Origin: Alphaproteobacteria bacterium
Lineage (GTDB): Bacteria; Pseudomonadota; Alphaproteobacteria; Micavibrionales; Micavibrionaceae
NCBI GenBank assembly: GCA_016757515.1
Contig: JAERIN010000008.1
Span: 1-47,631 of the forward strand
Length of the DNA stretch: 47,631 bases
Reading direction: 5' to 3'
Position 1 is the first letter of the stretch, and each line of letters begins with the position of its first letter. Below the pieces are notes generated by a model that was given only the letters and a program-made list of their open reading frames with translations, ran no database searches and had not been told where the DNA came from. Shown one piece after another: positions 22,216 through 46,455 of the stretch. Position numbers and translations under genes: made by a program.

Positions 22216-22247
22216 ATAATAGCGCGAAAAGGTTAATGAATCGTTAA
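22216..22247 (-). promoter_or_regulatory. CtrA-box promoter of the repressor operon
   Basis: On the - strand: TTAA, 7 bases (CGATTCA), TTAACC, 9 bases (TTTTCGCGC), TATTAT. This is the same layout as eleven other promoters in the window. A GAGG/CCTC hairpin can form at the start of the transcript. Confidence 0.8.
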
Positions 22248-22339
22248 TTTCCTAGATTATTTTTCTGCGGCGCTGCATCTTGCTGCGAGCGCCCCCATGG
22301 CCCGCACAGATCCACAAGTGTTCTCTCTAGATCTCGCAT
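22244..22339 (-). CDS. Possible 31-residue protein
   Basis: MRDLERTLVDLCGPWGRSQQ..., with GAAGG eight bases upstream of the ATG, just after the end of the gene at 22347. Its stop lies inside the CtrA box of the next promoter. Accept only weakly; it may be chance. Confidence 0.25.
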   Translation of the reverse strand: MRDLERTLVDLCGPWGRSQQDAAPQKNNLGN

Positions 22340-22346
22340 ACTGCCT

Positions 22347-22682
22347 TCACCCATCGTCGCTGTCTCCCTCTTTCAGCATCTCTCTTACAAGCAGCATAGC
22401 TGCGGGGTGCTTTCCGCCCTCGGACATTCTTCCTAATATGAAGGACCGATAGTCTCGGTATGCCTCCCTGCCTTTCTGTGTCGCTATCACCTCGATGCTT
22501 TTTCCATAACCATAGACCTTAAGGTGCCCACTGTTTTTCAGATCGCTGATTTTGTCTATGAGCTCCTTGCCTTGTATTTGAATCCCGATCTTCGCACAGG
22601 CCTCTTCGATCTCGCTCAGCTCCATGCAACTGAAACGACCCGCGAACGCACCAAGAATCTCAAAACCGCCAGCAACGCCCAT
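22347..22682 (-). CDS. Hypothetical protein, possibly winged-helix-like (111 aa)
   Basis: GAGGGGCG precedes the ATG. ELSEIEEACAKIGIQIQGKE, then ELIDKISDLKNSGHLKVYGY and SIEVIATQKGREAYRDY read like a small helix-helix-wing fold (a TQKGREAY ending is common in winged-helix transcription factors). No family match claimed. It follows the DnaQ-like exonuclease with six bases between. Confidence 0.6.
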   Translation of the reverse strand: MGVAGGFEILGAFAGRFSCMELSEIEEACAKIGIQIQGKELIDKISDLKNSGHLKVYGYGKSIEVIATQKGREAYRDYRSFILGRMSEGGKHPAAMLLVREMLKEGDSDDG

Positions 22683-22688
22683 CGCCCC

Positions 22689-23228
22689 TCAAAGATCCCC
22701 CCTTTTGCGCATTTCTATGTAGCACCTCGTTAAGGCCCCAACGTCCGTCCGCGCCCGGTGCGACCCTGAGAATCTGCAGCCGAACAGGAACTCATGCAAT
22801 GCATTTAGATTCAGCCTATAGCCTTTATAGAATAGGCTCTCTTTGACAGTGCAGATCCTAATCTTCGGCCATCCTAAATCTGCACCCGCGCCGCACCTGC
22901 TTAATTCTAGATCCAACATCTTCCAGTCATAAGCCAAGTTGTGGGCGACGATTGCGTCCGCATCTTGCAGCAATCCTCTCACGCTCTCCGCATAGTGCGA
23001 AAATGGGGGCGCATCCACGACGTCGGACTTTTTTATGCCTGTTATGGACGTTATCTCTTCAGATATTTCAATGCCTGGATTGCAGAAGAATTCGAGCTCT
23101 CTTATTGAAGAGCCATCATCGTCAATGATGTGGCCGAAGAACTCAATGATTCTGGGCTGGTAGTTATCTCGGGCGATGCTGGGTGGCAGAAGGCCCGTCG
23201 TTTCTGTATCAAAAATCAACGCCTTCAT
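22689..23228 (-). CDS. DnaQ-like 3'-5' exonuclease (DEDDh)
   Basis: 179 residues. Exo I motif FDTETTG (Asp7, Glu9), Exo II IVAHNLAYDWKMLD, and Exo III SGSHRARTDVGA with the His and Asp of the DEDDh type. These residues bind two metal ions and hydrolyse 3' ends. The phage also encodes a DnaE-type polymerase, which lacks proofreading of its own, so this enzyme probably acts as its proofreader. AAAAGGAGACC is upstream of the ATG. The gene overlaps the DUF6378-like gene by 20 bases. Confidence 0.9.
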   Translation of the reverse strand: MKALIFDTETTGLLPPSIARDNYQPRIIEFFGHIIDDDGSSIRELEFFCNPGIEISEEITSITGIKKSDVVDAPPFSHYAESVRGLLQDADAIVAHNLAYDWKMLDLELSRCGAGADLGWPKIRICTVKESLFYKGYRLNLNALHEFLFGCRFSGSHRARTDVGALTRCYIEMRKRGDL

Positions 23229-23550
23229 CTTCGGTCTCCTTTTTCAGATTCTCATCTTCTGTGCCAAGGATCGCCATGTACACAATAGCGTCGTGCAAAC
23301 TATCACCATGGCCCCCGCTCGACCAATTCTGAGAATACCGAACAAGCTTGCCGACGGTCCATGCGAACAGGTGGAACCTTCTAAAGTCTTCTTCTGTCTT
23401 TAGCTCAACACCTTCAGGGAAAATTGCACTCAACGCATTGCCAATCACAATATAGCTATCGCCATATTCTGCTGACCTCACCGCATATGTCTCTTTGCAA
23501 AGGTCTAGCAGCTCGCTCGCCCTTTTTCCGCCTTCTCTAAAAAACGCCAT
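23209..23550 (-). CDS. MazG/DUF6378-like protein
   Basis: 113 residues from the ATG at 23550, which has AGGAGGATATTA upstream. EYGDSYIVIGNAL, KLVRYSQ and GGHGDSLHDAIVYMAIL form the pattern of phage DUF6378 proteins (YGD... K..R... DS..D...Y), relatives of the all-alpha NTP pyrophosphatase (MazG) group. A role in nucleotide pool control fits the adjacent ThyX and phosphatase genes. Enzyme activity is not proven for this group. Confidence 0.7.
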   Translation of the reverse strand: MAFFREGGKRASELLDLCKETYAVRSAEYGDSYIVIGNALSAIFPEGVELKTEEDFRRFHLFAWTVGKLVRYSQNWSSGGHGDSLHDAIVYMAILGTEDENLKKETEDEGVDF

Positions 23551-24221
23551 TAATATCCTCCTGCTTGCACTTGCCAACAAGGTAGGCCCATCTCTCTAAA
23601 GGCTTCGACGACCCTGTCTCTATCTTCCAAAACGACCAACACCTTCTCTTGAACATTTTCTTTACTCCCGAACAAGTCGATAAGCATCTTCGGCTTGAGG
23701 TCGCAATCCCTCGCCCGGTTTCCGCTTGGCCTCATGAAGGTGTAGTCTAGGGGGATCCGATACTTCACCAGCCAGCTAGAAGTCATCTGTTCATACTTCT
23801 CGTCCCTGCCTGTAAGGCCGAAGATTATGTACCCTTGCGCTTGAAGAACTTTTATGAATTCGACAGTTTCGAACTTCGGTGTATCATACGGCGACAAAGC
23901 GTGGAACTCGTCCCATTCTGTCGCTTGCGCGAGGTGAACGCGATGTGCGCAATCTGCCACCGTTCCGTCTATGTCGACGATGACCACAATCCTCTTAGAC
24001 CTCTCGTCGAAGACTGACAAGCCAACTGCCTCGCACCATGGGGGGAATGCAACTTCTGCAAAGAGTGTAAAGTCTTCCCCGAATGATTTGTTCTTAACTT
24101 CGACTTGTGATATGGGGACCTTTAATACCCTTTTGTCTTTGTCTTCGACGTCCTGGATCGTGATGAATGTCTCGCCTTCTGCGAGGATTTTATATCTGCG
24201 AGCATTGCCAATTTCTTTCAT
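23550..24221 (-). CDS. Polynucleotide kinase-type 3'-phosphatase (HAD fold)
   Basis: 223 residues. The C-terminal 150 residues are a HAD phosphatase like that of T4 polynucleotide kinase: VVIVDIDGTVADC (Asp83 nucleophile, Asp85), DWDEFHAL-like EWDEFHALSP, LTGRDEKYEQMTSSWL, YTFMRPSGNRARDCDLK, and a final VLVVLEDRDRVVEAFREMGL. The P-loop kinase half is absent; the first 75 residues are an unrelated small domain. Likely removes 3' phosphates from nucleic acid ends or nucleotides. It lies between DUF6378 and ThyX genes with overlaps at both ends. Confidence 0.8.
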   Translation of the reverse strand: MKEIGNARRYKILAEGETFITIQDVEDKDKRVLKVPISQVEVKNKSFGEDFTLFAEVAFPPWCEAVGLSVFDERSKRIVVIVDIDGTVADCAHRVHLAQATEWDEFHALSPYDTPKFETVEFIKVLQAQGYIIFGLTGRDEKYEQMTSSWLVKYRIPLDYTFMRPSGNRARDCDLKPKMLIDLFGSKENVQEKVLVVLEDRDRVVEAFREMGLPCWQVQAGGY

Positions 24222-25904: not shown

Positions 25905-26480
25905 TTAACCCTCCTGCTTTTTGCTGAACTTCGCGACCCGACCAATATACAAGCCCAAAGTCTCAGCGTCTATGCTCTCCCCGCTCCTCAATCTTTCACG
26001 AGCAAACGCTTGGAGCGTCGAGGGATGAACAGTCATATTCGAAGACGGTGTAAAGCCTAGGTCTTCAAGCCTCTTAGCAACTTCTGAGGCCCGATCTTCT
26101 TCCCCTCGACCGAAATTGACTTTGACTTCTGTCTTAATCAATGAACCACCATCGTTGTCCTTGAGCCAATTGATTGCGGCTGTCTTCTTTTCACCTTCTT
26201 TCGGAAGGCCACCGCTGACAAAGTCCTTTATCGTTATTGACCATCCATTCCAAGTCATTTGCTCCATGCGCAAAGAAGCCATCAGCTCTGGTATTCGCTG
26301 CTCCTTCATCGCACGCAAAGAAGACTTCACCTGTTTCAGATCCTCTTCGAGGGAGACGGCGTGTTCCTCAAGGCTGACCGCCTCTAAGAGCACTTCTTGA
26401 AGGAGGGCGAGTGTATCTTCCTCGCCCTCCCCCTCGCAGCCGTCAAACTCTTCGACTTCGCTGACTTCTCTTTGGGACAT
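25905..26480 (-). CDS. Conserved phage early protein (191 aa)
   Basis: An acidic N-terminus, a coiled coil near residues 25-62 (LLEAVSLEEHAVSLEEDLKQ), then IPELMASLRMEQMTWNGWSI, a beta region and FTPSSNMTVHPSTLQAFARE with a C-terminal ARE..RSGE pattern. I have the impression of a family found beside the following gene in many phages, but cannot name a function. Its ATG overlaps the upstream stop (TAATG), so the two are translated together; the partner suggests a DNA replication or recombination role. Confidence 0.6.
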   Translation of the reverse strand: MSQREVSEVEEFDGCEGEGEEDTLALLQEVLLEAVSLEEHAVSLEEDLKQVKSSLRAMKEQRIPELMASLRMEQMTWNGWSITIKDFVSGGLPKEGEKKTAAINWLKDNDGGSLIKTEVKVNFGRGEEDRASEVAKRLEDLGFTPSSNMTVHPSTLQAFARERLRSGESIDAETLGLYIGRVAKFSKKQEG

Positions 26481-27292
26481 TACATGGCCCCTTCGCTATC
26501 AGTCTGGTCGGATTCAACCTGATCGGCTTTTACCTCACCTCTTATGATGGATTCCCTAAACGCAACCGCTTCAGCCTTTATCTGCCGCCAGTCAACATTC
26601 GACTTAAAGTCTGGCAGCGCCACATCGCGATTGATGACCCATGTTGCCCATTCGCCTTCGGCATTTGAGTCTGTGGCAGAAGAGAGTCTATACACGCGAT
26701 AGAACAACGGTGCGGCGAATTCGCTCCCGTCTGCCCGGACGAGCTTCTCACCAATGGCCATAGTCATCCACTTGCGGGAACGCTTCAGCTGGGTCGAAGT
26801 CATAGGGATATAGCAGGGGCGGCGACCAGCAGACAAATTAAGCCCGAACCACTGCGCTGTCTCAGCGATATAGTTGCCATTCGGGAGAACCATCTTGTTC
26901 TTTTCATCCTTCTTGCAGGTGTCAAGAACTCTTGGGTCTGTATGGATGGCGATTAAGCCCTTGCCTGTTGAGCGTGGGGCCCATTCAAGAAAATCTTTTC
27001 TATAATGCACTGGCAAGAAGAGAAGGTCATCCGGGAATAGGTCGCCAGTCCCAAGATCACAGATCATACCAATGTCTGCACCTTCAATGTATTCGCCCTT
27101 CTTCTTGTTCAGCTGCGGGCTAAGGGTCTGCAGAAGTGTGAGACGGGGGATAATGACATCTTTGCTGGAGACATCTTCCATCCCTGCGGCGGCATGCGCC
27201 TCAAAGTCTTGAGCCCCAGCAGACGGCAGATGCTCAACTACAACCGCGACTTCTTTGCTCTTTTCTTTTTTCGACGATTTGGTCACTTTCAT
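26480..27292 (-). CDS. Conserved phage early protein, possible ssDNA-binding role
   Basis: 270 residues. A lysine-rich start is followed by VSSKDVIIPRLTLLQTLSPQ, GDLFPDDLLFLPVHYRKDFLEWAP and an acidic tail (VESDQTDSEGAM). This pattern belongs to a widespread phage family of early proteins; the acidic tail resembles that of single-stranded DNA-binding proteins, but I cannot confirm the activity. AAGGAG precedes the ATG. It is the first gene of the leftward operon, divergent from the replication operon. Confidence 0.6.
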   Translation of the reverse strand: MKVTKSSKKEKSKEVAVVVEHLPSAGAQDFEAHAAAGMEDVSSKDVIIPRLTLLQTLSPQLNKKKGEYIEGADIGMICDLGTGDLFPDDLLFLPVHYRKDFLEWAPRSTGKGLIAIHTDPRVLDTCKKDEKNKMVLPNGNYIAETAQWFGLNLSAGRRPCYIPMTSTQLKRSRKWMTMAIGEKLVRADGSEFAAPLFYRVYRLSSATDSNAEGEWATWVINRDVALPDFKSNVDWRQIKAEAVAFRESIIRGEVKADQVESDQTDSEGAM

Positions 27293-27431: not shown

Positions 27432-27463
27432 TTAACGATTTGTTAACCTTTTCGCTGTATTCT
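27432..27463 (+). promoter_or_regulatory. CtrA-box promoter of the replication operon
   Basis: TTAA-N7 (CGATTTG)-TTAACC-N9-TATTCT on the + strand in the divergent region 27293-27518. The box reads as TTAA-N7-TTAA on both strands, so CtrA bound here could also affect the leftward operon; no matching -10 is seen on the - strand. Confidence 0.8.
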
Positions 27464-28163: not shown

Positions 28164-29939
28164 ATGCTTTTAGAGATAATCGGTCCGCACGCCTTTCTAC
28201 GGGGCAAGGTGAAGTGTGCAGCGCTCTTCGCAGCGCTACCAATGCTAGAAGGGCGAAGGCATTGGCTCAAGTGTGGGAGCCTTAAGGTCGAAGCGACAAA
28301 AAAGAATCTCCAAGCCTTGAATCTTCTGCCTGGATTAGAAGTCCGAGAGGTCTCTGAGGTTGCCAGCGAAGAGCTGCTAGAAGAATTCGAGCTTGCTCCG
28401 CAGCCATTCCGATACAAAACAACACCCTTCAATCACCAGGTAAGGGCGATGGAAAAGATTCTCTCGCCGAGAGAATATCCCAATGTCTTTGCCTTATTCC
28501 TCGAACAAGGCCTAGGGAAGACAAAGACCCTCATAGACTGGGCAGGTATGCTTCATGCAGAGAAGAAGATTTCTGGCGTGCTTGTGGTCAGCAAGAAGGG
28601 GGTGCACAGGCAGTGGGTCGAAAGCGAGCTACCCGCGCACAGCGCTGCAGAATCTCAGACCTTCACATGGCCATTCAAGCCCGAAGAGCTGGACAAAAAG
28701 CCGGGCTTTCAATGGGCAGCGTTCAACATTGACGGAATAAAGACCAAAAAAGGTCTAGAAGTCGCAACATTGTTCGCGAAGAGACACTCTAAGCGTTTAA
28801 TGATAATCGTCGATGAGTCCCAAGAGATAAAGAACCACCGCACCCAAAGGTGGAAGGCCCTCGAAGGGCTCAAGAAGTATTCCTCACATAGGGCCATCGC
28901 TACCGGAACACCAATCGCGAAAGATTTTTGCGACGAGTGGGCGCAGCTGCGATGGCTCGAAGAAGGCATTCTCGGGATAAGGTACATCACGGCCTTTAAG
29001 GCTGAGTTTTGCATACTCGGCGGATACAATGGGTACGATGTTATTGGCCACAAGAACATCGCCCGATTCCGCAAGCTCGTCGACCCATATACATTCCGCG
29101 TGACAAAAGAGGATGTCGGCATATTGCCGAAAATGTACAATGAATGGCGCTTCAATCTGACGCAGAAGCAAAAGCAGATGATTAAAGAGTTAAAGGCGAC
29201 TTTGTTTTCTAGCATTGAAAGCGGCGCTATCGTCTCTGCAGCGAATGCTGCCACACAGCTCGATAAGTTCCGCCAGGTCTCTTCCGGCTTCTTTTACGAT
29301 GAAAACAAGGTCGCGCACAGAATAATGGAGCCAAAAGACAATCCTAGGGCGACGGCTGTTTTGGAATGGCTTGAATCTTTCACGGGCAAGGCTGCAATCT
29401 GGGCATATTACAGGGAAGACATAAAGATAATCGCAGAGCTGCTGACCGAAGCAGGAATCACATTCGTGGAATATCACGGTGGTGTCTGCGACAACGATCG
29501 TGTGCTCGCAGTCAAATCGTTCATGAGCAAAGACGGTGCACGCGTCCTCTTGGCGACCCCCTCTTCCGCCGGAACAGGCCTAAATCTCCAAGGGCTCTGC
29601 AACAATGCGCTTTATTATTCGCACAGCTTCAGGGCCCTAGATAGGTGGCAATCTGAAGACAGAATACACCGCATCGGCACAAAGGGGGTCGTCGTCTACA
29701 CAGACATGATCGGCAAGGGGTCAATCGTCGACACCAAAGCTGTGCAAAGTCTGGCCCGAAAACAGGGTATAAGTGACCTAGGGATAGGGGACATCAAGAA
29801 GATGCTCACGGAAGAAGAAGGGCCGATAATCCGCCCGGAGCCTTCCATAAGCTCTAACGATGAGGCGCGGGCCGAAGAACCATTTAGAGAGCGAGACTTA
29901 TTCGCACAGGCAGGTTCAGCAGAAGCATGGGAGGGATAG
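28164..29939 (+). CDS. SNF2/DEAD-like DNA helicase
   Basis: 591 residues. Motif I EQGLGKTKT (114-122), motif Ia VLVVSKKG, motif II IIVDESQEIKN (DESQ 217-220), motif III ATGTP (246-250), and C-terminal AGTGLNLQGLCNNALYYS and WQSEDRIHRIGTKG for motifs V and VI. This is the two-lobed SF2 helicase of the SNF2-like type seen in many phage replication modules; it likely uses ATP to remodel or unwind DNA. The N-terminal 80 residues are an extra domain. It follows a strong hairpin and precedes a membrane protein gene. Confidence 0.9.
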   Translation: MLLEIIGPHAFLRGKVKCAALFAALPMLEGRRHWLKCGSLKVEATKKNLQALNLLPGLEVREVSEVASEELLEEFELAPQPFRYKTTPFNHQVRAMEKILSPREYPNVFALFLEQGLGKTKTLIDWAGMLHAEKKISGVLVVSKKGVHRQWVESELPAHSAAESQTFTWPFKPEELDKKPGFQWAAFNIDGIKTKKGLEVATLFAKRHSKRLMIIVDESQEIKNHRTQRWKALEGLKKYSSHRAIATGTPIAKDFCDEWAQLRWLEEGILGIRYITAFKAEFCILGGYNGYDVIGHKNIARFRKLVDPYTFRVTKEDVGILPKMYNEWRFNLTQKQKQMIKELKATLFSSIESGAIVSAANAATQLDKFRQVSSGFFYDENKVAHRIMEPKDNPRATAVLEWLESFTGKAAIWAYYREDIKIIAELLTEAGITFVEYHGGVCDNDRVLAVKSFMSKDGARVLLATPSSAGTGLNLQGLCNNALYYSHSFRALDRWQSEDRIHRIGTKGVVVYTDMIGKGSIVDTKAVQSLARKQGISDLGIGDIKKMLTEEEGPIIRPEPSISSNDEARAEEPFRERDLFAQAGSAEAWEG

Positions 29940-30329: not shown

Positions 30330-30357
30330 CCTTTCATTAACCTTTTCGGGATATACT
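30326..30357 (+). promoter_or_regulatory. CtrA-box promoter
   Basis: TTAA-N7 (CCTTTCA)-TTAACC-N9-TATACT. The box overlaps the stop of the previous gene. It would drive the short genes at 30409-31173 and probably the polymerase and primase genes after them. Confidence 0.8.
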
Positions 30358-31173: not shown

Positions 31174-31174
31174 A

Positions 31175-38679: not shown

Positions 38680-38918
38680 GCAAAAAAGCCTACTCGAACG
38701 CTCTGTAGAAATAATTCTGATAATCATTTTTCGGCTTGAAAATCCGATACCGCACTCTTGTTATTTTTTTGGGCTCTTCTGGTGTAAATCAGAGATTATT
38801 AGAATTATTTTTACAGTGATTATTGAAACTCTTCTCGAAGGTGTTCGAAAAGGCCCATCTCTTCTATTTCGCAAGGAATGTTTTGATAATACAAGAATTT
38901 TTGATTATCAGAATTCGA
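38680..38918 (+). repeat. Inverted repeat copy 1 (239 bp, perfect)
   Basis: Exact reverse complement of 47393-47631 over all 239 bases. It ends three bases before the stop codon of the nuclease gene. The sequence is AT-rich, with no supported gene. Because copy 2 reaches the window end, the true repeat may be longer than 239 bases. Confidence 0.97.
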
Positions 38919-39328: not shown

Positions 39329-39388
39329 AATTGTTGGACCTTGTGTCTTGTTTTTCATAATTGTTGGACCTTGTGTCTTGTTTTTTCG
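39310..39388 (-). repeat. Tandem repeat of the nuclease start region
   Basis: A 30-31 base unit (TTGTGTCTTG..TTTTTCATAATTGTTGGACC) occurs twice and starts a third time. Each unit carries an ATG in the gene frame, so translation start sites are duplicated. Confidence 0.85.
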
Positions 39389-39475: not shown

Positions 39476-39958
39476 TTAACCTTTTATTAACATTTTTGGG
39501 GGCCAATTCGCTGAGCCTTTACGCTATAAAATAATCTATATTTATTAACCTTTTATTAACATTTTTGGGGGCCAATTCGCTGAGCCTTTACGCTATAAAA
39601 TAATCTATATTTATTAACCTTTTATTAACCTTTTTGGGGGCCAATTCGCTGAGCTTTTCCGCTATAAAATAATCTATATTTATTAACCTTTTATTAACAT
39701 TTTTGGGGGCCAATTCGCTGAGCCTTTACGCTATAAAATAATCTATATTTATTAACCTTTTATTAACCTTTTTGGGGGCCAATTCGCTGAGCTTTTCCGC
39801 TATAAAATAATCTGTATTTATTAACCTTTTATTAACATTTTTGGGGGCCAATTCGCTGAGCTTTTCCGCTATAAAATAATCTATATTTATTAACCTTTTA
39901 TTAACCTTTTGGGGGGCCAATTCGCTGAGCTTTTCCGCTATAAAATAGCCGAGCGTTA
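39476..39958 (+). repeat. Seven tandem 69-bp repeats, each with a CtrA box
   Basis: TTAACCTTTTATTAAC begins at 39476, 39545, 39614, 39683, 39752, 39821 and 39890, an exact 69-base period. Each unit then has GGGGGCCAATTCGCTGAGC and GCTATAAAATAATC. The box keeps TTAA-N7-TTAA in every copy although bases around it vary. No -10 element lies nine bases after the box, as it does in the promoters, and no gene is supported. Confidence 0.95.
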
Positions 39959-39959
39959 A

Positions 39960-40080
39960 CCTTTACCCTAGGGCACAGGGCGGGGGCGCGTAAGGGTAGG
40001 GCCTAGGGTACCGGGCGGGGGCGCGTAAGGGTAGGGCCTAGGGTACCGGGCCTAGGGTACCGGGCCTAGGGTACCGGGCC
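39960..40080 (+). repeat. GC-rich tandem repeats
   Basis: A 35-base unit (GGGCGGGGGCGCGTAAGGGT..., ending in TAGGGTACC) occurs about twice, followed by three copies of the 14-base unit GGGCCTAGGGTACC. No gene. Starts after a half CtrA box (CGTTAACC at 39955). Confidence 0.8.
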
Positions 40081-40130
40081 GAGCGGCGACGGACGATGGG
40101 CGAAAATAAAAGGACGGTTTTTATTCGACA

Positions 40131-40189
40131 ATGGGCCGGGGGCGGCTTAGATACGAGGTTAAATGGGCCAACCCACGCCCCCGGCCCAT
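40131..40189. terminator. Large hairpin (14-bp perfect stem)
   Basis: ATGGGCCGGGGGCG and CGCCCCCGGCCCAT pair across a 31-base loop. An A/T-rich stem-like segment (40101-40129) precedes it. It separates the GC-rich repeats from the second CtrA-box array; a terminator or replication structure is possible. Confidence 0.6.
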
Positions 40190-40256
40190 CATTTATTCAC
40201 CGCGGCGCGCCCAAGAAAATTAGCTATAAAATAATCCTAAAAAAATTAGCCTTTTG

Positions 40257-40426
40257 TTAACCCTTTCTTAACCTTTTTTGGGGCCAATTCGCTGAGCTTT
40301 TTCGCTATAAAATAATCTGCCGTTATTAACCCTTTCTTAACCTTTTTGGGGGCCAATTCGCTGAGCTTTTTCGCTATAAAATAATCTGCCGTTATTAACC
40401 TTTTGTTAACCTTTTCGCGCTATTAT
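40257..40426 (+). promoter_or_regulatory. CtrA-box array (3 units) ending in a promoter
   Basis: Boxes at 40257, 40326 and 40395, again 69 bases apart. The first two are followed by the GGGGCCAATTCGCTGAGC spacer of the big array; the third has the promoter form TTAA-N7-TTAACC-N9-TATTAT (40395-40426) and drives the ORF at 40481. Confidence 0.85.
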
Positions 40427-40480
40427 AAAAGGAGAGGGGTAGCGTTAGGCGGCCCCGTAAACCTAAAGGGGGACCATACC

Positions 40481-40780
40481 ATGATAAATGTTATTTACGC
40501 CAGAAAACCGGCCAGCCGGGCCGAGGTAGAAAGCGGAACGCGCCCCGGCGCTGGGGTGCCGCGCCCCACTATAGTCACTGAGGAGCTGGCCCTATCCGCT
40601 ATAGAATACGACTCTTTTTTATCTTCCCCGCTAGGGCGGCGTAGCTGGCTTAAAGGCCGGGGCGGTTGGGATAAAAACGGCGTAAGGCGGGCCATAGCGC
40701 TTAAGTGCCCAGGCCGAATAACCCTATATGTTGACCCCTCAGGGTACGATTATGGGCGCTATGTAGGCGTTAAGGTATAA
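40481..40780 (+). CDS. Cassette protein 1, hypothetical (99 aa)
   Basis: AAAGGGGGACC precedes ATG 40481; the longer in-frame version would begin inside the promoter. The sequence (MINVIYARKPASRAEVESGT, SFLSSPLGRRSWLKGRGGWD, RITLYVDPSGYDYGRYVG) is basic with a C-terminal beta segment. No family recognised. Codon use is rich in ATA, CTA and TTA. It has its own CtrA-box promoter and a terminator-like hairpin after the following repeat cluster. Confidence 0.65.
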   Translation: MINVIYARKPASRAEVESGTRPGAGVPRPTIVTEELALSAIEYDSFLSSPLGRRSWLKGRGGWDKNGVRRAIALKCPGRITLYVDPSGYDYGRYVGVKV

Positions 40781-40843
40781 AAGCCTATTAAAGGCTACTC
40801 AGGCGACTCTGCTGGGCTCTTCTGGGCTCGGCAGGGCTCGGCA

Positions 40844-40941
40844 GTGACCCCGCGGGTGAAGTGATCCGGCGGGTGAAGTGATCCCGCGGGTGAAGTGATC
40901 CCGCGGGTGAAGTGACCCGGCGTAAACCGGGCCCCTTTTTT
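40844..40941 (+). repeat. 17-bp repeat cluster A (4 units) and terminator
   Basis: Four units of GTGA(C/T)CC(C/G)GCGGGTGAA (40844-40911), preceded by GGCTC-type repeats, then CCCGG-CGTAAA-CCGGG followed by CCCC and six T (40916-40941), a good rho-independent terminator. The region 40781-41217 holds no gene. Confidence 0.85.
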
Positions 40942-40991
40942 ACGCGCCTAGCGTAGGCCCGGCTTTTTCGCTATAAAATAATCTCTAGAAA

Positions 40992-41161
40992 TTAACCTTT
41001 TCTTAACCTTTTTGGGGGCCAATTCGCTGAGCTTTTTCGCTATAAAATAATCTCTAGAAATTAACCTTTTCTTAACCTTTTTGGGGGCCAATTCGCTGAG
41101 CTTTTTCGCTATAAAATAATCTGCCGTTATTAACCTTTTGTTAACCTTTTCGCGCTACTAT
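40992..41161 (+). promoter_or_regulatory. CtrA-box array (3 units) ending in a promoter
   Basis: Boxes at 40992, 41061 and 41130, spaced 69 bases. The last has TTAA-N7-TTAACC-N9-TACTAT (41130-41161) and drives the ORF at 41218. Confidence 0.85.
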
Positions 41162-41217
41162 AAAAGGAGAGGGGGTAGCGTTGGGCGGCCCCGTAAACCT
41201 AAAGGGGGAAAATTATT

Positions 41218-41457
41218 ATGAATAATTTAACTTTTTCTGAGCAAAAAGCTTTAGTAGCTCAAACCTATAGCGCGGCGGGTGACGCGCGGGGCGCGGTCGG
41301 TGATTTACTTAACGCCCTAGAAAATGTAGATTTTGAGGCCGCTATAACGGCCCTAGCTGACTCAATTATAAAGCAGCTGGACCCGGCTAGCCGGGGGCTA
41401 CTTAAAAATGACCCGGCTGGCTACCTGGGCGGTGAATACGCTGATAGCCCGGCTTAA
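41218..41457 (+). CDS. Cassette protein 2, hypothetical (79 aa)
   Basis: AAAGGGGGAAAA precedes the ATG. MNNLTFSEQKALVAQTYSAA and VGDLLNALENVDFEAAITAL suggest a small acidic helical bundle; it ends PAGYLGGEYADSPA. Its last codons lie in a palindrome GCCCGGCTTAAGCCGGGC that also works as terminator stem. No family recognised. Confidence 0.65.
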   Translation: MNNLTFSEQKALVAQTYSAAGDARGAVGDLLNALENVDFEAAITALADSIIKQLDPASRGLLKNDPAGYLGGEYADSPA

Positions 41458-41616
41458 GCCGGGCCTATAGGCGCGCGTAAATAATAGGCGGCCCCGCGCT
41501 GGGCTGGGCCCGGCTGGGCTACCTGGGCGGTGAATACGCTGATAGCCCGGCTTAAGCCGGGCCTATAGGCGCGCGTAAATAATAGGCGGCCCCGCGCTGG
41601 GCTGGGCCCGGCTGGG
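41421..41616 (+). repeat. 98-bp tandem duplication including gene end and hairpin
   Basis: 41421-41518 is repeated at 41519-41616. Both copies carry the 18-base palindrome GCCCGGCTTAAGCCGGGC (41447-41464 and 41545-41562). The second copy repeats the last codons of the 79-aa gene without a start. Confidence 0.9.
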
Positions 41617-41624
41617 CTTTGGGG

Positions 41625-41692
41625 ATGATCCGACGGGTGAAGTGATCCGACGGGTGAAGTGATCCGACGGCTGAAGTGATCCAGCGGGTGAA
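41625..41692 (+). repeat. 17-bp repeat cluster B (4 units)
   Basis: Four units close to GTGATCCGACGGGTGAA, one with CTGAA. It separates the + strand cassette 2 from the - strand cassette 3. Confidence 0.9.
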
Positions 41693-41709
41693 GTGACGCG
41701 CCTCAGCTG

Positions 41710-41868
41710 CTACACCGCCCGCCCTACCACAGCAGTACCATCATTCACCGCCACCGGTACCCCAAAAGTCGGCACGCGCCCAAAAAACGCCCTGACCCCA
41801 GCGTAGTCAGCCAGCACCCGCGTTTCGGCTATAAACCCGTACCCGTTAAAAATGAAAACCTTAAACAT
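41710..41868 (-). CDS. Cassette protein 3, hypothetical (52 aa)
   Basis: A short ORF with a full cassette context: an inverted promoter array upstream, a leader with the GCGGCCCCGTAAACCTAAAAGGGG form, and ATG six bases after AGGGGC. The protein (MFKVFIFNGYGFIAETRVLA, VRAFFGRVPTFGVPVAV) is hydrophobic-aromatic and basic, perhaps a small beta protein. It is divergent from cassette 4. Confidence 0.6.
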   Translation of the reverse strand: MFKVFIFNGYGFIAETRVLADYAGVRAFFGRVPTFGVPVAVNDGTAVVGRAV

Positions 41869-41921
41869 TTTAGTGCCCCTTTTAGGTTTACGGGGCCGCC
41901 CTACGCTACCCCTCTCTTTTT

Positions 41922-42022
41922 ATAATAGCGCGAAAAGATTAACAAAAGGTTAATAACGGCAGATTATTTTATAGCGGAAAAGCTCAGCGAATTGGCCCCC
42001 AAAAAGATTAAGAAAATGTTAA
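41922..42022 (-). promoter_or_regulatory. CtrA-box promoter and upstream box, leftward
   Basis: On the - strand, TTAA-N7-TTAATC-N9-TATTAT (41922-41953) with a second box TTAA-N7-TTAA at 42008-42022, 69 bases upstream, joined by the GGGGGCCAATTCGCTGAGC spacer. Drives the 52-aa gene. Confidence 0.8.
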
Positions 42023-42062
42023 TTTTTCGGGCCTTAAAGTTTTTATTTTTAAGGCCACTATG

Positions 42063-42094
42063 TTAACGATTTGTTAACCTTTTCGCGCTATTAT
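42063..42094 (+). promoter_or_regulatory. CtrA-box promoter
   Basis: TTAA-N7 (CGATTTG)-TTAACC-N9-TATTAT, divergent from the 52-aa gene promoter; drives the ORF at 42151. Confidence 0.85.
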
Positions 42095-42150
42095 AAAAGG
42101 AGAGGGGGTAGCGTTGGGCGGCCCCATTTAACCTAAAGGGGGAAAATATT

Positions 42151-42498
42151 ATGACTTTATTTTTCAAAAACTTTGATAAAGGTGAGGCGCGTAAAAGTTT
42201 GGCCGGTGATGGGCCGGCGGGTAATAGCCCTGAGGAAAACGAGTGCTATTTTCCTGACTTAAATATAAAGGTTGGTAATGAACTTATAAAGCTTGATAGC
42301 TATGTTAATTTAAATAAAGGTGATGGGCCTTATATAAGTTTTTGCTTTCATAAAAGCCCGTTTGACTTAACCTATTTCTACAAAAGCTATAAATCCGCGG
42401 CTGATTTTATAAATGACTTGTGCTTGCTTAAAAGTAAATATAAGGTTTTAACACCGGCTTTACTTGAAAAAATGGGCTTTTTAACAGAAATGGCCTAA
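42151..42498 (+). CDS. Cassette protein 4 (115 aa), paralogue of cassette protein 5
   Basis: AAAGGGGGAAAA precedes the ATG. Shared blocks with the protein at 42871: ECYFPDLNIKVGNE versus ECYIPGLTIKTEDG, then YKSYKSAADFINDL versus EKTYKLASDFIGDI, and LLEKMGF versus ILKKMGF. The family is unknown to me. Likely a beta-rich domain with a C-terminal helix. The two genes have separate CtrA-box promoters and terminators, so they arose by cassette duplication and diverged. Confidence 0.7.
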   Translation: MTLFFKNFDKGEARKSLAGDGPAGNSPEENECYFPDLNIKVGNELIKLDSYVNLNKGDGPYISFCFHKSPFDLTYFYKSYKSAADFINDLCLLKSKYKVLTPALLEKMGFLTEMA

Positions 42499-42513
42499 TA
42501 GTAGGGCGGACTA

Positions 42514-42537
42514 GGGGCCCGGCGTAAACCGGGCCCC
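42514..42537 (+). terminator. GC-rich hairpin after cassette 4
   Basis: GGGGCCCGG-CGTAAA-CCGGGCCCC, a perfect 9-bp stem, followed by TTATTT. Confidence 0.8.
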
Positions 42538-42762
42538 TTATTTACGCGCGCCTATAGGCCCGGTTTCGGCTGGGCCCCCTTATTTACGCGCGCCTATAGG
42601 CCCGGTTTCGGCTGGGCTCGGCTCGGCTCGGCTCGGCTCGGCTCGGCAGTGACCCGGCGGGTGACCCGGCGGGTGAAGTGATCTGACGGGTGAAGTGATC
42701 TGACGGGTGAAGTGATCTGACGGGTGAAGTGATCTGACGGGTGAAGTGATCTGACGGGTGAA
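42538..42762 (+). repeat. 42-bp duplication, GGCTC repeats and 17-bp cluster C
   Basis: A 37-base segment (TTATTTACGCGCGCCTATAGG...) recurs with 42-base period (42538 and 42580), then about six GGCTC units, then one partial and six full 17-base repeats, five of them GTGATCTGACGGGTGAA (42661-42762). The cluster ends GTGATGCGCGAAAAA, directly before the next CtrA box. Confidence 0.9.
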
Positions 42763-42777
42763 GTGATGCGCGAAAAA

Positions 42778-42809
42778 TTAACACTTTATTAACCTTTTCG
42801 CGATATTAT
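42778..42809 (+). promoter_or_regulatory. CtrA-box promoter
   Basis: TTAA-N7 (CACTTTA)-TTAACC-N9-TATTAT; drives the ORF at 42871. The leader can form GGGTGGC/GCCGCCC. Confidence 0.85.
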
Positions 42810-42870
42810 AAAAGGAGAGGGGTGGCGCGGTGCCGCCCTTATTTAACCTAACTTAAAAGGGGTATCAAAA

Positions 42871-43236
42871 ATGACTATAAATATATTACCAGTGCCTAAG
42901 GCGGACTACGGGTTAAACCCGGCGGTAGTAGGGCCGGGTTATAATATTTATATAGGTGATGAGTGTTATATACCGGGCCTTACTATAAAAACTGAGGACG
43001 GCGTAAGTAAAACCCTTTATAGCTGTATTAATTTACACCTGGGTGACTTACAATTGGGGGCCGGTATTAACCTAGCCTATAGTATAGGTGAAGTGGATAC
43101 CGTTTTATGGGAGAAAACCTATAAACTAGCGTCAGATTTTATAGGTGATATAGTAGCCCTAACTAGTAAAAAAGGCGACTTTACCCCAGAAATACTTAAA
43201 AAAATGGGCTTTACGCCGTACTCTACTGTAAAATAA
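42871..43236 (+). CDS. Cassette protein 5 (121 aa), paralogue of cassette protein 4
   Basis: AAAAGGGG precedes the ATG. MTINILPVPKADYGLNPAVV, then YNIYIGDECYIPGLTIKTED and ILKKMGFTPYSTVK. Similar block order to the protein at 42151, with a longer N-terminus. Function unknown. It has its own promoter, hairpin and repeat cluster. Confidence 0.7.
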   Translation: MTINILPVPKADYGLNPAVVGPGYNIYIGDECYIPGLTIKTEDGVSKTLYSCINLHLGDLQLGAGINLAYSIGEVDTVLWEKTYKLASDFIGDIVALTSKKGDFTPEILKKMGFTPYSTVK

Positions 43237-43247
43237 CTTTACTTAAA

Positions 43248-43272
43248 GGGGCCCGGCTTACGCTGGGCCCCC
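43248..43272 (+). terminator. GC-rich hairpin after cassette 5
   Basis: GGGGCCC and GGGCCCC pair around a short GC-containing loop, followed by CTTATTT. Confidence 0.75.
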
Positions 43273-43301
43273 TTATTTACACGCGCCTATAGGCCCGGTT
43301 T

Positions 43302-43377
43302 CGGCTCGGCTCGGCTCGGCTCGGCAGTGACCCGGCGGGTGAAGTGATCTGACGGGTGAAGTGATCTGACGGGTGAA
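43302..43377 (+). repeat. GGCTC repeats and 17-bp cluster D (3 units)
   Basis: Four GGCTC-type units, then GTGACCCGGCGGGTGAA and two GTGATCTGACGGGTGAA (43327-43377). It ends GTGATGCGCGAAAAA before the next CtrA box, as in cluster C. Confidence 0.9.
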
Positions 43378-43392
43378 GTGATGCGCGAAAAA

Positions 43393-43424
43393 TTAACACT
43401 TTATTAACCTTTTCGCGGTATTAT
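43393..43424 (+). promoter_or_regulatory. CtrA-box promoter
   Basis: TTAA-N7 (CACTTTA)-TTAACC-N9-TATTAT; drives the ORF at 43482. Confidence 0.85.
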
Positions 43425-43481
43425 AAAAGGAGAGGGGGTAGCGTTAGGCAAGCCCCTATAACTCAAAGGGAGTACCATACC

Positions 43482-43715
43482 ATGAAAAGCACCATTTATG
43501 AAGCAGAGCTTTACGACCTCTTAAAATTCGCAAAGGCGTTCGCGAGCCTAGGCAGCGCGGTCCAAGACCAACTCGATGACCTGGCGAATGAGCGGTTTGA
43601 GCAGGTAAACCCAAACGCGCTGTACCTAATGGAGCAAAGGCTCTACGGGCAGAATGAAGAGCTCGACGATGTCATGAACACGCTCCGAGACATCTTAGAC
43701 GACACGACGGTCTAA
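43482..43715 (+). CDS. Cassette protein 6, hypothetical (77 aa)
   Basis: AAAGGGAGTACC precedes the ATG. MKSTIYEAELYDLLKFAKAF, LGSAVQDQLDDLANERFEQV and LDDVMNTLRDILDD indicate a small acidic all-helical protein. Base composition and codons are more like the main genome than cassettes 1-5. No family recognised. Confidence 0.65.
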   Translation: MKSTIYEAELYDLLKFAKAFASLGSAVQDQLDDLANERFEQVNPNALYLMEQRLYGQNEELDDVMNTLRDILDDTTV

Positions 43716-43783
43716 GCGGCCCGGCGGGTGAAGTGACCCGGCGGGTGAAGTGACCCGGCGGATGAAGTGATCTGACGGGTGAA
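43716..43783 (+). repeat. 17-bp repeat cluster E (4 units)
   Basis: Begins directly after the stop of the 77-aa gene: three (C/T)CCGGCGG(G/A)TGAA-type units and one GTGATCTGACGGGTGAA, then GTGATGCGCGAAAAA before the next CtrA box. Confidence 0.9.
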
Positions 43784-43799
43784 GTGATGCGCGAAAAAG

Positions 43800-43831
43800 T
43801 TAACCTTTTATTAACCTTTTCGCGTTATTAT
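43800..43831 (+). promoter_or_regulatory. CtrA-box promoter
   Basis: TTAA-N7 (CCTTTTA)-TTAACC-N9-TATTAT; drives the ORF at 43891. Confidence 0.85.
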
Positions 43832-43890
43832 AAAAGGAGAGGGGCAGCAATAGGCCGCCACCTAACACCGCAGCAAGGGAGACCAAGACC

Positions 43891-44220
43891 ATGTTTAAAC
43901 TTTACGATAAAAGCAACGCCATGGCCCGCGTCACGATAAAAGGCCGCCGCGCCTTGCACTATGACGGCCTTCACCTGGGTGATTGTGACGACCGGGTGTC
44001 CTATGAGTGGCACGACAGTTTTTATGTCGCCGGTCGCAGCAAAAAGGCCGGGCCGCGCATCCTGCCCACCGCTCACATCCCCGGCCTTCACTACACCGGG
44101 GCCCTGTACCCTGACGACCCCCTGAGCCTGGCAGAGCGCCTGGGCTTTTACAAGGGGGCCGTGGTGACCGTGCGCCCCATGAACGGCACATCGGGGCCGG
44201 GGTCCAGGCATGTACTTTGA
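43891..44220 (+). CDS. Cassette protein 7, hypothetical (109 aa)
   Basis: CAAGGGAGACC precedes the ATG. MFKLYDKSNAMARVTIKGRR and YEWHDSFYVAGRSKKAGPRI, then a Pro/Gly-rich end. Basic, beta-rich and His-containing (HIPGLHYTGALYP). No family recognised. GC-rich third positions fit the later cassettes. Confidence 0.65.
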   Translation: MFKLYDKSNAMARVTIKGRRALHYDGLHLGDCDDRVSYEWHDSFYVAGRSKKAGPRILPTAHIPGLHYTGALYPDDPLSLAERLGFYKGAVVTVRPMNGTSGPGSRHVL

Positions 44221-44265
44221 CCCCACGGGGAGCCCCGGCCCCCACAACGCGAAAGGAGAGGCGCT

Positions 44266-44331
44266 ATGGGAGAAATAGCAGACATGATCGAGGACGGCAC
44301 GCTTTGCCAAGTGTTCCGGCGGGTGAAGTGA
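44266..44331 (+). pseudogene. Truncated MGEIADM-type phage zinc protein
   Basis: AAAGGAGAGG precedes an ATG whose first 15 residues (MGEIADMIEDGTLCQ) match the start of a small phage protein family in which a CxxCG zinc motif follows. Here the first 17-base repeat takes over right after that Cys-Gln, adds six codons and ends the frame (VFRRVK stop). The gene is cut by the repeat cluster. Confidence 0.6.
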
Positions 44332-44361
44332 TCCAGCGGGTGAAGTGATCCAGCGGGTGAA
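44311..44361 (+). repeat. 17-bp repeat cluster F (3 units)
   Basis: GTGTTCCGGCGGGTGAA and two GTGATCCAGCGGGTGAA, overlapping the end of the truncated gene at 44266. Confidence 0.9.
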
Positions 44362-44374
44362 GTGATCTCACCCT

Positions 44375-45367
44375 TCACAACTCACCCCTCAAGCAGCTGA
44401 CAGTCATCGTCCGGCCATTCGCCCGAGATATAAGGATAGAGGCCTTCTGGCCCGCCCCCATGGCTCCAGGCCGAGCGACATAAAAGTCCTGGTCCCAGGC
44501 CCCTGAGTCCTTAAGAAAGCCCAGATTAATCGCGACCCCTCCCCCGTGCTTCACGGATGTTTGAGCTATGATGGCGCTCCGCCGCCTATCGCCCCAGGGG
44601 CACAAGTGGCCTTCCTCAGAGATATACGCATGGGCGAGGCGGGCCGGAGACTTGCCCTTGAAGGCCTTAAGTGCGGCCACAAATTCCGCATGCTTAAGGC
44701 CTAAGCGCCCGACAGGTACGGCACAGCGGGCGGCATCACTCTCAAACTTCCGGAGCGCTGCGACAAAGGCTTCCGCCTTATCGTCCGGGGCGCCACAAAG
44801 CGATGTAGCGCTGACCGGGCCAAATTCGCCCCGCACGCACACCGCCCCCCGCTCAGACGTAAAGATGGCCAGCTTGATGGTCTTGGCCTTGTACATTCGC
44901 GCGAGTTTGCAGAATGTGGCGAGGTCTTTCTTGCCCATGCGGACGCCCTTCATGTCTTCGGGCAAGACCAAGTCGGGGGTGTCGACAGAATGGATGCGAA
45001 ACTGGTCAGACGAGAATGCCTGCCCATAAGATGTAAAAAAGACCTCAGTGAAAGGGCCGCTGCGATGAAGGGCATCCGCCGCGAGCAAAAATGCCGCATC
45101 CCCGATGGGCACATTTATCTCAGCGCCTGTTGGTCGCAATGAACGGGCGAAAGCGCTCTCGGCCAGAACTTCCGCATAAACACTCACGCGCTCGAACGAC
45201 GCGCCGTCCTCAGTTATGTACTGCCCGTCTTCCAGCATTTCTTCTGGCCCGAGCACCTTCTGCACAAGGCAGTCCCCCGGAACATGGCGCAACTGGGCCA
45301 CGCCACCCTTCACATCGAACAATTTTAGGCCCGCGCGCTTCCTCGCGACTTTAAGCAGTTTTTTCAT
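44375..45367 (-). CDS. Hypothetical protein (330 aa)
   Basis: The largest gene of the cassette region. ATG follows AAAGGTGAAAACGCT. Alternating strands and helices (VPIGDAAFLLAADALHRSGP, FCKLARMYKAKTIKLAIFTS, VPVGRLGLKHAEFVAALKAF) end in a region (GVAINLGFLKDSGAW) that weakly recalls the last domain of a sliding clamp, but I would not assign that. No catalytic motif is clear. It is probably transcribed with the gene at 45396 from the leftward CtrA-box promoter at 45870. Confidence 0.65.
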   Translation of the reverse strand: MKKLLKVARKRAGLKLFDVKGGVAQLRHVPGDCLVQKVLGPEEMLEDGQYITEDGASFERVSVYAEVLAESAFARSLRPTGAEINVPIGDAAFLLAADALHRSGPFTEVFFTSYGQAFSSDQFRIHSVDTPDLVLPEDMKGVRMGKKDLATFCKLARMYKAKTIKLAIFTSERGAVCVRGEFGPVSATSLCGAPDDKAEAFVAALRKFESDAARCAVPVGRLGLKHAEFVAALKAFKGKSPARLAHAYISEEGHLCPWGDRRRSAIIAQTSVKHGGGVAINLGFLKDSGAWDQDFYVARPGAMGAGQKASILISRANGRTMTVSCLRGEL

Positions 45368-45395
45368 AGCGTTTTCACCTTTCTAATCCGTTGTG

Positions 45396-45812
45396 TCATG
45401 CGACATTATTCCTCATTGATTGCTGATGAAGAGCTTTCAAGAAAGTCTCTATGACTTGCCTGTTTTTCCAGCCTTTCTTCATATCCCAAATCCACGCCAA
45501 ATTATGATTGGTGTCTGTTATAAGGTATGCCAGGACGATGGGCTTGCCTTTTCTGAAGTGACGCAAACAGAAAAATATCATTCTTCTATTCTGGCAGTAC
45601 CCTCTTATCTCATGTTTTACCCAGCTTGGTATGTAGCTCGGCAAATTATTCAAATCATATTGCAGCAATTCTCCCTTTTCAAACGAATGCCTATTGCATT
45701 CAAGATCATTTTCGCTCCGAATGTAGCTGGAGAATTGCGTTTCTGTTATGGCATTCCCCATTGAGGGAAAATGCCCATTGTAATTTTTATGTGCACAATC
45801 AAATCTAATCAT
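45396..45812 (-). CDS. Hypothetical protein, Cys/His/aromatic-rich (138 aa)
   Basis: CAGGAGAGGAGACC precedes the ATG. The sequence is AT-rich and unlike its neighbours in base use: MIRFDCAHKNYNGHFPSMGN, SWVKHEIRGYCQNRRMIFFC, VLAYLITDTNHNLAWIWDMK. It could be an acetyltransferase-like or other small enzyme fold, but nothing is conserved enough to say. First gene after the leftward CtrA-box promoter. Confidence 0.65.
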   Translation of the reverse strand: MIRFDCAHKNYNGHFPSMGNAITETQFSSYIRSENDLECNRHSFEKGELLQYDLNNLPSYIPSWVKHEIRGYCQNRRMIFFCLRHFRKGKPIVLAYLITDTNHNLAWIWDMKKGWKNRQVIETFLKALHQQSMRNNVA

Positions 45813-45869
45813 GGTATGGTCTCCTCTCCTGAGTTATGGGGGGAGCCTTATTGCTCTCCCTCTCCTTTT

Positions 45870-45901
45870 ATAATATCGCGAAAAGGTTAACAAATCGTTA
45901 A
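45870..45901 (-). promoter_or_regulatory. CtrA-box promoter, leftward
   Basis: On the - strand TTAA-N7 (CGATTTG)-TTAACC-N9-TATTAT; drives 45812 to 44375. The leader can pair GGGAG with CTCCC. Confidence 0.85.
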
Positions 45902-45975
45902 AATTTTGATGCGCTCTGTACGAATATTTCACACCCAAATAGATATAAAAATTTCGACAGCATGATGTGGAAAAA

Positions 45976-46007
45976 TTAACACTTTATTAACCTTTTCGCG
46001 ATATTAT
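45976..46007 (+). promoter_or_regulatory. CtrA-box promoter
   Basis: TTAA-N7 (CACTTTA)-TTAACC-N9-TATTAT, divergent from the previous one; drives the two short ORFs at 46063 and 46203. Confidence 0.85.
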
Positions 46008-46062
46008 GAAAGGAGAGGGGGAGCGCTCTGCCCCCCCATAACCCAGAGAGAGGAAACAAATT

Positions 46063-46176
46063 ATGAGTATTATAGACATCGCTCTTTGCTTGGCTATGCT
46101 AGTATTTGCTGGTATAGTATGTCTTATAGTTGCGGAGGGGTTGCACCACTTGTTTACATCCGATTATAACGACTAA
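46063..46176 (+). CDS. Single-pass membrane micro-protein (37 aa)
   Basis: AGAGAGGAAAC precedes the ATG. MSIIDIALCLAMLVFAGIVC is followed by LIVAEGLHHLFTSDYND: one membrane segment at residues 4-24 and a short acidic tail. Such single-pass micro-proteins in phages often act on host membrane functions; no family is claimed. Confidence 0.6.
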   Translation: MSIIDIALCLAMLVFAGIVCLIVAEGLHHLFTSDYND

Positions 46177-46202
46177 CATAACCCAGAGAGGAAGGCCCCA
46201 TC

Positions 46203-46376
46203 ATGGCCAACGCGAAAACACCCGGCCAGCTCGCATATGAAGCCGAGCTTGTCTACGCGCCGACATACCCTTGCGGAAGGCCGCGCATCGCGTGGGACGA
46301 CCTGCCACAGTATGCGAAGAAGGCCTGGGAGGAAGACCCGACCCCTAGGCCGCTGCGACCAATACTGCCAGCATAA
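46203..46376 (+). CDS. Small conserved phage protein (57 aa)
   Basis: GAGAGGAAGGCCCC precedes the ATG. TPGQLAYEAELVYAP, then RIAWDDLPQYAKKAWEEDPT and PRPLRP: this matches the pattern TPxxxAYEA..W..L....R..WE..PTPR of a short protein found in many tailed phages. Function unknown. Second gene of its cassette. Confidence 0.65.
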   Translation: MANAKTPGQLAYEAELVYAPTYPCGRPRIAWDDLPQYAKKAWEEDPTPRPLRPILPA

Positions 46377-46423
46377 CTCAGAAAGGTGAAAATGCTATAA
46401 AAATCTGCTTAAAGTCGCGAAAA

Positions 46424-46455
46424 TTAACGATTTGTTAACCTTTTCGCGATATTAT
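46424..46455 (+). promoter_or_regulatory. CtrA-box promoter
   Basis: TTAA-N7 (CGATTTG)-TTAACC-N9-TATTAT; drives the ORF at 46512. The leader pairs GGGGC (46465-46469) with GCCCC (46481-46485). Confidence 0.85.

Follow-up and report, generated by a model that had tools for sequence, protein, structure and literature searches.

Putative CtrA-activated promoters repeated along a phage contig binned with a Micavibrionaceae bacterium

Contig JAERIN010000008.1 raises the question of which protein reads the many TTAA-N7-TTAA boxes of a phage, and with what effect on transcription. The window analysed here is this whole contig (47,631 bases), one of the 90 contigs of a 1.75-Mb assembly (GCA_016757515.1) of an alphaproteobacterium of the Micavibrionaceae. 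An earlier note, made from the sequence of the contig, listed promoters in which such a box, interpreted as a site for the regulator CtrA, occupies the place of a normal -35 hexamer. We consider it probable that thirteen of these arrangements, here called type A, are phage promoters activated by the CtrA of the host; CtrA binding, activation rather than repression, timing and the pairing with this host are all inferred from sequence comparisons.

A repeated arrangement of box and -10 hexamer

The exact box occurs 25 times in the window, against 0.75 expected and a maximum of three in 100 shuffled sequences, the control that the earlier note had proposed. Other spacings between the TTAA tetramers (0–6 and 8–19) are found once or not at all, with the exception of a spacing of 11, which is found five times. 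The whole assembly contains 34 exact boxes, so that most are on this contig. All but one of the 25 are non-genic according to our own list of 55 genes, in a contig that is 87% coding, and 22 lie within 39476–46438, ten of them at 39476–40409 inside a 1.1-kb stretch without a called gene.

Every box is near-symmetrical and can be read on both strands, giving 50 oriented boxes. A -10-like hexamer is present 11 nt downstream (gap 11) of 25 of these; gaps of 10, 21 and 23 have one each, and the remaining gaps from 0 to 40 have none, the background density of such hexamers being 0.0025 across the window and 0.0051 in its last 9.6 kb. Counting either strand, 22 of the 25 boxes carry a -10 at this 11-nt gap; ten boxes are type A only, nine belong only to a second type (type B), three are both and three are neither.

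The twelve promoters listed earlier and a thirteenth that had been thought possible, 46424(+), are all present and match TTAA-N7-TTAAYC-N9-TAYWMT exactly, an arrangement not seen in 100 dinucleotide shuffles. An ATG is located 51–61 nt past the -10 at each of the thirteen, and at 30326 there is also an earlier open ATG at 12 nt. The TTAA halves and both spacings are fixed, as had been stated, but the N7 is not free to vary: its position 1 (C) and positions 4–5 (TT) are invariant in all thirteen. Invariant letters continue downstream of the box (TTAA-n-CTTTTCG-n3-TA-n3-T-n-AAA-n2-AG-n2-GG), defining a module of about 45 bp with a mean pairwise identity of 0.87 among the thirteen copies. Outside it the sequences are mostly unrelated; over 60 bp on each side the mean identity is 0.31 upstream and 0.37 downstream, and only 4 of 78 upstream pairs and 2 of 78 downstream pairs are more than 60% alike. 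The type A unit thus appears to have been spread or maintained as a module. Its fixity had been taken as the sign of protein binding, and part of it may reflect copying; invariant letters by themselves do not distinguish copying from selection, and for this reason comparison with the host is helpful.

Two properties of the type A sites would suit a CtrA-activated promoter. First, no canonical -35 accompanies the shared -10, agreement with TTGACA at spacers of 16–18 being 2/6 or less at all thirteen, although three sites have weak, shifted sigma-70 matches (see below). Second, the half-sites form a direct repeat at 11 bp, with 7 to 10 of the 11 positions alike, and direct-repeat half-sites at 11 bp are expected for OmpR-type regulators. 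In Rhodobacter sphaeroides, mapped starts lie 23 or 24 nt from the boundary of the CtrA site, which is said to be consistent with Caulobacter (PMC6180460). In the phage layout the gap of 11, the 6 nt of the hexamer and a further 6 or 7 nt likewise add up to 23 or 24 nt from the box, and the distance from box to -10 therefore appears to fit mapped CtrA-activated promoters.

The earlier list was incomplete, as there are twelve further oriented boxes with TATTTT at gap 11; eleven of these are minus-strand boxes and the twelfth is on the plus strand. These type B boxes sit in 69-bp repeats and one inverted copy (Table 1). The intervening 11 nt differ between the types, being for example TAAATATAGAT in type B and mostly CCTTTTCGCGN in type A, such that two sequence families share the box and the gap. 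At three boxes (40395, 41130 and 41939) type A on one strand is combined with type B on the opposite strand. We regard type B as weaker evidence than type A, because its copies repeat one another and a weak sigma-70 promoter of the ordinary kind (TTAACA-17-GATTAT) can be discerned in some of them.

CtrA in the host family and in other phages

A host without CtrA would speak against this interpretation, as the earlier note recognized, and CtrA is encoded in the same assembly (NF045991, about 354 bits, 353.7–354.1, with a cut-off of 350), the host itself being assigned by bin only. The DNA-binding region of this CtrA is close to that of other CtrAs and largely conserved, with several substitutions, and the whole protein is 64–68% identical to the 11 others aligned; the best named matches by E-value are from Roseospirillum parvum (66%) and Micavibrio sp. 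UBA5572 (65%). The CtrA model scores above its cut-off in 92 of 103 family genomes, whereas a threshold of E 0.001 is uninformative, with matches in 103 of 103 family genomes but also in 12 of 14 control genomes. From the boxes themselves one would predict an alphaproteobacterial host that has CtrA.

In Caulobacter the pilin gene pilA is an established target of CtrA, and Flp pilins (PF04964) are present in 96 of the 103 family genomes searched. We examined the 30 best-scoring pilin loci, from 30 of these 96 genomes, and 27 have an exact box 60–260 nt upstream of the pilin motif. At each of the 27, TANNNT follows a box by 11 or 12 nt (27 of 29 boxes, ten at gap 11 and 17 at gap 12). The phage promoters resemble these host promoters in the exact box and in the TANNNT at gap 11 or 12; they differ in their flanks, have no module in common with them, and are distinguished by gap 11 at all thirteen sites and by their many copies. 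A search for the exact layout found it in 18 of 104 family genomes, including this one; the 17 of 103 others contain 19 matches, compared with five for a reversed control, and a good part of these may be chance. Three of ten such loci examined (L016, L019 and L020) are upstream of Flp pilin genes. The presence of CtrA, the pilin loci and the distance from box to -10 together support the identification of the box as a CtrA site.

CtrA sites in phages had been described in the earlier note as proposed before, which understates the case, since CtrA control of phage genes, by activation or repression, was demonstrated in 2022 for three phages by gel shift and reporter assays (PMC9437464). That paper groups phiCbK, Mesorhizobium phage Cp1R7A-A1, Brevundimonas phage vB_BsubS-Delta and others as LPEG phages, on the criterion of a normalised positional entropy below 0.75, and notes that several are known, or suspected, to direct their infection at the pilus or flagellum. 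It proposes lytic deferment for CtrA-regulated phages. This contig is similar to the LPEG phages in its clustered intergenic boxes, including a site-dense gap region, and in an alphaproteobacterial CtrA host. It is unlike them in that one module, present thirteen times, heads regulator and replication operons, and in having a second set of boxes mostly on the opposite strand. In LPEG phages the genes on which CtrA reportedly acts are few and uncharacterised, with 1–3 sites per tested probe; in one case, Rhizobium phage Pasto, sites precede the gene of a single-stranded DNA-binding protein (PMC9437464). The earlier note had described the number of sites here, and their use for repressor, replication and cassette genes alike, as unusual in appearance.

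Within positions 1–20000 of phiCbK there are three exact boxes, two of which have TANNNT at gap 11 or 12, as here (TAGGGT at gap 12 for gp018, and TATGGT at gap 11 for a box at 9900). Delta has six exact boxes (two pieces, both strands); TANNNT is at gap 11 in none and at gap 10 in three oriented end-piece boxes. In its fixed gap, the contig thus resembles host-family pilin promoters more closely than it does all known CtrA phages.

By its tail protein the phage is nearest to KL1-like siphophages (Burkholderia KL1, with Variovorax, Xanthomonas and Pseudomonas phages and Sphingomonas phages Kimi, Birtae and MMDA13), at about 34–36% identity over 70–71% of the query, and by eye the tail gene order is similar. 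The comparison with related phages that had been suggested gives one exact box in Kimi, none in Birtae and one in MMDA13, the three KL1-like phages scanned, and none of these has the layout. The annotations of Kimi and Birtae name DNA polymerase I, in contrast to the polymerase III alpha of this phage.

Searches of viral_contigs returned no stretches for the TTAA-N7-TTAACCTTTT-type pattern. A looser module pattern matched once in each of 42 contigs, 37 of the 42 stretches being below 40% G+C and the matches being compatible with chance, though two of the contigs (L122 and L127) have six boxes each. Two other patterns, one with 65 stretches, led to box-rich viral contigs, with L394, L391 and L373 among the high counts. 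Four such contigs (L347, L374, L389 and L395) were rejected as relatives of the layout, since their boxes belong to arrays of 11-bp iterons that have no -10 at gap 11; the iterons are tandem copies of TTAACCNNNNC, which in three of these contigs surround a TAGTACAAATGTACTA palindrome. The tail protein 15569–18820 has no match in viral_contigs. The protein 26480–27292 has matches at four distant viral loci, box-free in the stretches examined, and in 467 phage records, all below 60% identity, and none in 102 other family genomes. An earlier report of such a phage was not found in the literature searched, a single open library.

Competing readings of the boxes

If the type A sites are activated by CtrA, active CtrA would bind the direct repeat of 11-bp period (TTAAC-N6-TTAA) at the -35 location and bring in sigma-70 RNA polymerase at the -10 (TATTAT and its variants) 11 nt downstream, and transcription would start 23–24 nt from the box. 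One module would be reused for the leftward operon of the HTH regulator, for the rightward helicase, DNA polymerase III alpha and DUF5906 operons and for ten small-gene units, and type B would represent a second repeat family of the same geometry, mostly on the opposite strand. Entry into the replication programme would then depend on the CtrA activity of the infected cell.

Several observations weigh against this interpretation. The module is conserved well past the expected CtrA contacts, and copying appears to explain part of its regularity. A general sigma-70 scan gives weak 9/12 matches with shifted hexamers at three of the thirteen sites (27432, 42778 and 45976), and five of the thirteen boxes also form fair inverted repeats, with 12 of 15 positions in agreement, that an XRE repressor could read. 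Iteron arrays such as those noted above show that boxes alone are not specific to CtrA, and at the box of phiCbK gp005 TANNNT is absent from gaps 11 and 12 even though, of the two CtrA-activated promoters gp005 and gp018, gp005 is the more strongly CtrA-dependent reporter (PMC9437464). On the host side, the CtrA of this assembly scores 353.7 bits compared with 397–428 in the 91 other family genomes over the cut-off. The pilin boxes favour gap 12 over gap 11 (17 versus ten of 29), and TANNNT is a loose pattern, also found at gap 17 of ten pilin boxes and at gaps 5 and 10 of six each. The assembly's own pilin gene is among the three of 30 loci without an exact box, having TTCA-N7-TTAA (one mismatch) with TAAGGT at gap 12. 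The full layout is absent from the assembly outside the phage contig, where the remaining ~1.7 Mb have only nine exact boxes, compared with seven assembly-wide matches to the reversed control pattern; we considered a CtrA regulon marked by these nine boxes and do not claim one. Finally, the G+C content of the phage is 51% and that of a host sample 65% (42,955 bases at 13 loci), and the binning may be wrong.

One alternative is that CtrA binds but represses, with phage genes silent at high CtrA and open once CtrA is cleared, as for the Delta gene DELTA_120, which is repressed by CtrA (PMC9437464); extra upstream boxes also lower the expression of Caulobacter pilA (PMC11264516). The positions of the -10 hexamers point the other way, as 22 of the 25 boxes here have one at gap 11, the place of activated promoters, and none of the six Delta boxes does, and we regard repression as unlikely.

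The boxes could also be operators of a phage regulator that controls its own operon and other units, with CtrA uninvolved. The HTH_3 protein 21508–21930 (-) is the only DNA-binding regulator recognised when all 55 genes were scanned with Pfam, and it lies downstream of the 22216(-) promoter; the inverted repeats, and the confinement of the exact layout to this contig within the assembly, would suit such a role. The same scan found no member of the OmpR-type DNA-binding family PF00486, and thus no phage relative of CtrA. The half-sites are nonetheless direct repeats at 11 bp, and pilin genes of the host family carry the same box with nearly the same gap, yet one phage protein (26480–27292) is unmatched in the other family genomes. 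Operators of a phage regulator seem to us quite unlikely.

It is also conceivable, and compatible with the main reading, that the box arrays are not promoters but a CtrA sponge, the many boxes of each replicating genome taking CtrA from its host targets, or a CtrA-regulated origin that gates phage replication. CtrA acts at the Caulobacter replication origin, where it gates replication, and the ten boxes at 39476–40409 are in a stretch devoid of called genes. A sponge would have no need of a -10 at gap 11, and the cumulative G+C skew, the one origin signature examined, has its minimum at 27–28 kb, away from the array, leaving this a very unlikely role for the boxes. It is highly improbable that an ordinary constitutive promoter was duplicated along the genome with its leader and resembles a CtrA site incidentally: the similarity of the thirteen copies, the weak sigma-70 matches at three of them and the sigma-70-like reading of some type B copies would agree with this, but a -35 for the shared -10 is missing at all thirteen, the flanks are mostly unrelated, and box and gap are common to two sequence families, with the box recurring at host pilin promoters.

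Genes of the contig and implications of CtrA control

The candidate promoters and associated repeats are listed in Table 1. The first box is at 22233 and the structural region is box-free, while none of the boxes with a -10 is directed into the leftward operon 27292–22347 (ThyX, exonuclease), so that not every gene is under this control. From the kinds of gene involved, those controlled by the promoters may be early genes. The ten small-gene units at 40.4–47.1 kb have no Pfam match; of ten small-gene proteins compared with PADLOC none matches a family, and of ten compared with PHROGs three have weak matches.

Table 1. Candidate promoters and repeats of the contig. Minus-strand type A coordinates begin at the low end of the site; ORF, open reading frame; aa, amino acids.
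Feature	Coordinates	Strand	Associated genes and remarks
Candidate type A promoter	22216–22247	-	before 63-aa ORF 21972–22163, then HTH_3 (XRE-like) regulator 21508–21930; leftward operon
Candidate type A promoter, TATTCT	27432–27463	+	before 194-aa ORF (no family match), then SNF2-type helicase 28164–29939
Candidate type A promoter, TATACT	30326–30357	+	before small ORFs, DNA polymerase III alpha 31100–35251 and DUF5906 protein 35254–37440
Candidate type A promoter	40395–40426	+	99-aa ORF 40481–40780; box shared with minus-strand type B
Candidate type A promoter, TACTAT	41130–41161	+	79-aa ORF 41218–41457; box shared with type B
Candidate type A promoter	41922–41953	-	52-aa ORF 41710–41868 (-); box shared with plus-strand type B
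Candidate type A promoter	42063–42094	+	115-aa ORF 42151–42498
Candidate type A promoter	42778–42809	+	121-aa ORF 42871–43236
Candidate type A promoter	43393–43424	+	77-aa ORF 43482–43715
Candidate type A promoter	43800–43831	+	109-aa ORF 43891–44220; half-sites alike at 10 of 11 positions
Candidate type A promoter	45870–45901	-	ORFs 45396–45812 and 44375–45367 (-)
Candidate type A promoter	45976–46007	+	37-aa ORF 46063–46176 and 57-aa ORF 46203–46376
Candidate type A promoter, thirteenth	46424–46455	+	89-aa ORF 46512–46781 and 92-aa ORF 46865–47143
69-bp repeat array, 6.8 copies	39476–39947	-	seven boxes; six type B (39528–39904), pointing left to ORF 38921–39358 (-)
Second 69-bp repeat block	40257–40415	-	box 40257 without -10 at gap 11; 40326 and 40395 minus-strand type B; 40395 also type A
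Third 69-bp repeat block	40962–41150	-	boxes 40992, 41061 and 41130 minus-strand type B; 41130 also type A
Inverted copy of 69-bp repeat	41939–42022	+	box 41939 plus-strand type B; box 42008–42022 neither type
17-bp repeat arrays	40843–40919, 41626–41696, 42670–42767, 43336–43382, 43720–43787, 44309–44367, 47251–47391

The small-gene region contains several other repeats. It is flanked by a 239-nt perfect inverted repeat (38680–38918 and 47393–47631) whose right copy ends exactly at the contig end, and the region may be invertible, or the assembly may have been broken at this repeat. Arrays of a 17-bp repeat of the CGGGTGAAGTGATCYGA type are located between small-gene units, three of them directly upstream of box promoters; these could be sites for a second regulator or seeds for recombination. 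A 30-bp repeat (2.5 copies, 39310–39385) duplicates the start region of ORF 38921–39358 (-). The proteins of the neighbouring ORFs 42151–42498 and 42871–43236 look paralogous by eye, which suggests that whole units were duplicated.

Elsewhere in the contig, DNA polymerase III alpha contains an intein (Pfam Intein_splicing, residues 728–953), and a 1092-aa ORF at 14–3292 lacks matches in Pfam, PHROGs and NCBIfam and has three partial matches in phages. The Pfam scans of the 55 genes named no terminase, portal or capsid family, so the left end of the contig is probably missing.

CtrA control of phages is a known kind of regulation, of which this contig would be an unusually extensive variant. 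New here are a lineage nearest to the KL1-like siphophages, a module used thirteen times, its placement before regulator and replication genes, the bidirectional boxes and the match to the pilin promoter of the host family. Activation by host CtrA would suggest that the regulator and replication genes of the phage switch on in CtrA-active cells. A more tentative possibility is that the regulator and replication programme, and not only some accessory genes, is placed under a host pilus-type promoter, with the regulator, helicase, DNA polymerase and ten small-gene units firing in CtrA-active, pilus-making cells and the three shared boxes firing both ways. Were the pilus to serve as receptor, the phage would both enter and begin expression in a single cell type; during replication, the 25 boxes carried by every genome copy would in addition titrate CtrA away from the host.

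Should host CtrA indeed activate these promoters, its control of phages would reach a lineage that differs from those reported and would include regulatory and replication genes, and the layout of the phage promoters would gain a direct link to the host family's pilus promoter. The thirteen-fold reuse of one module would also provide a ready test of the spacing and half-site features that CtrA needs.

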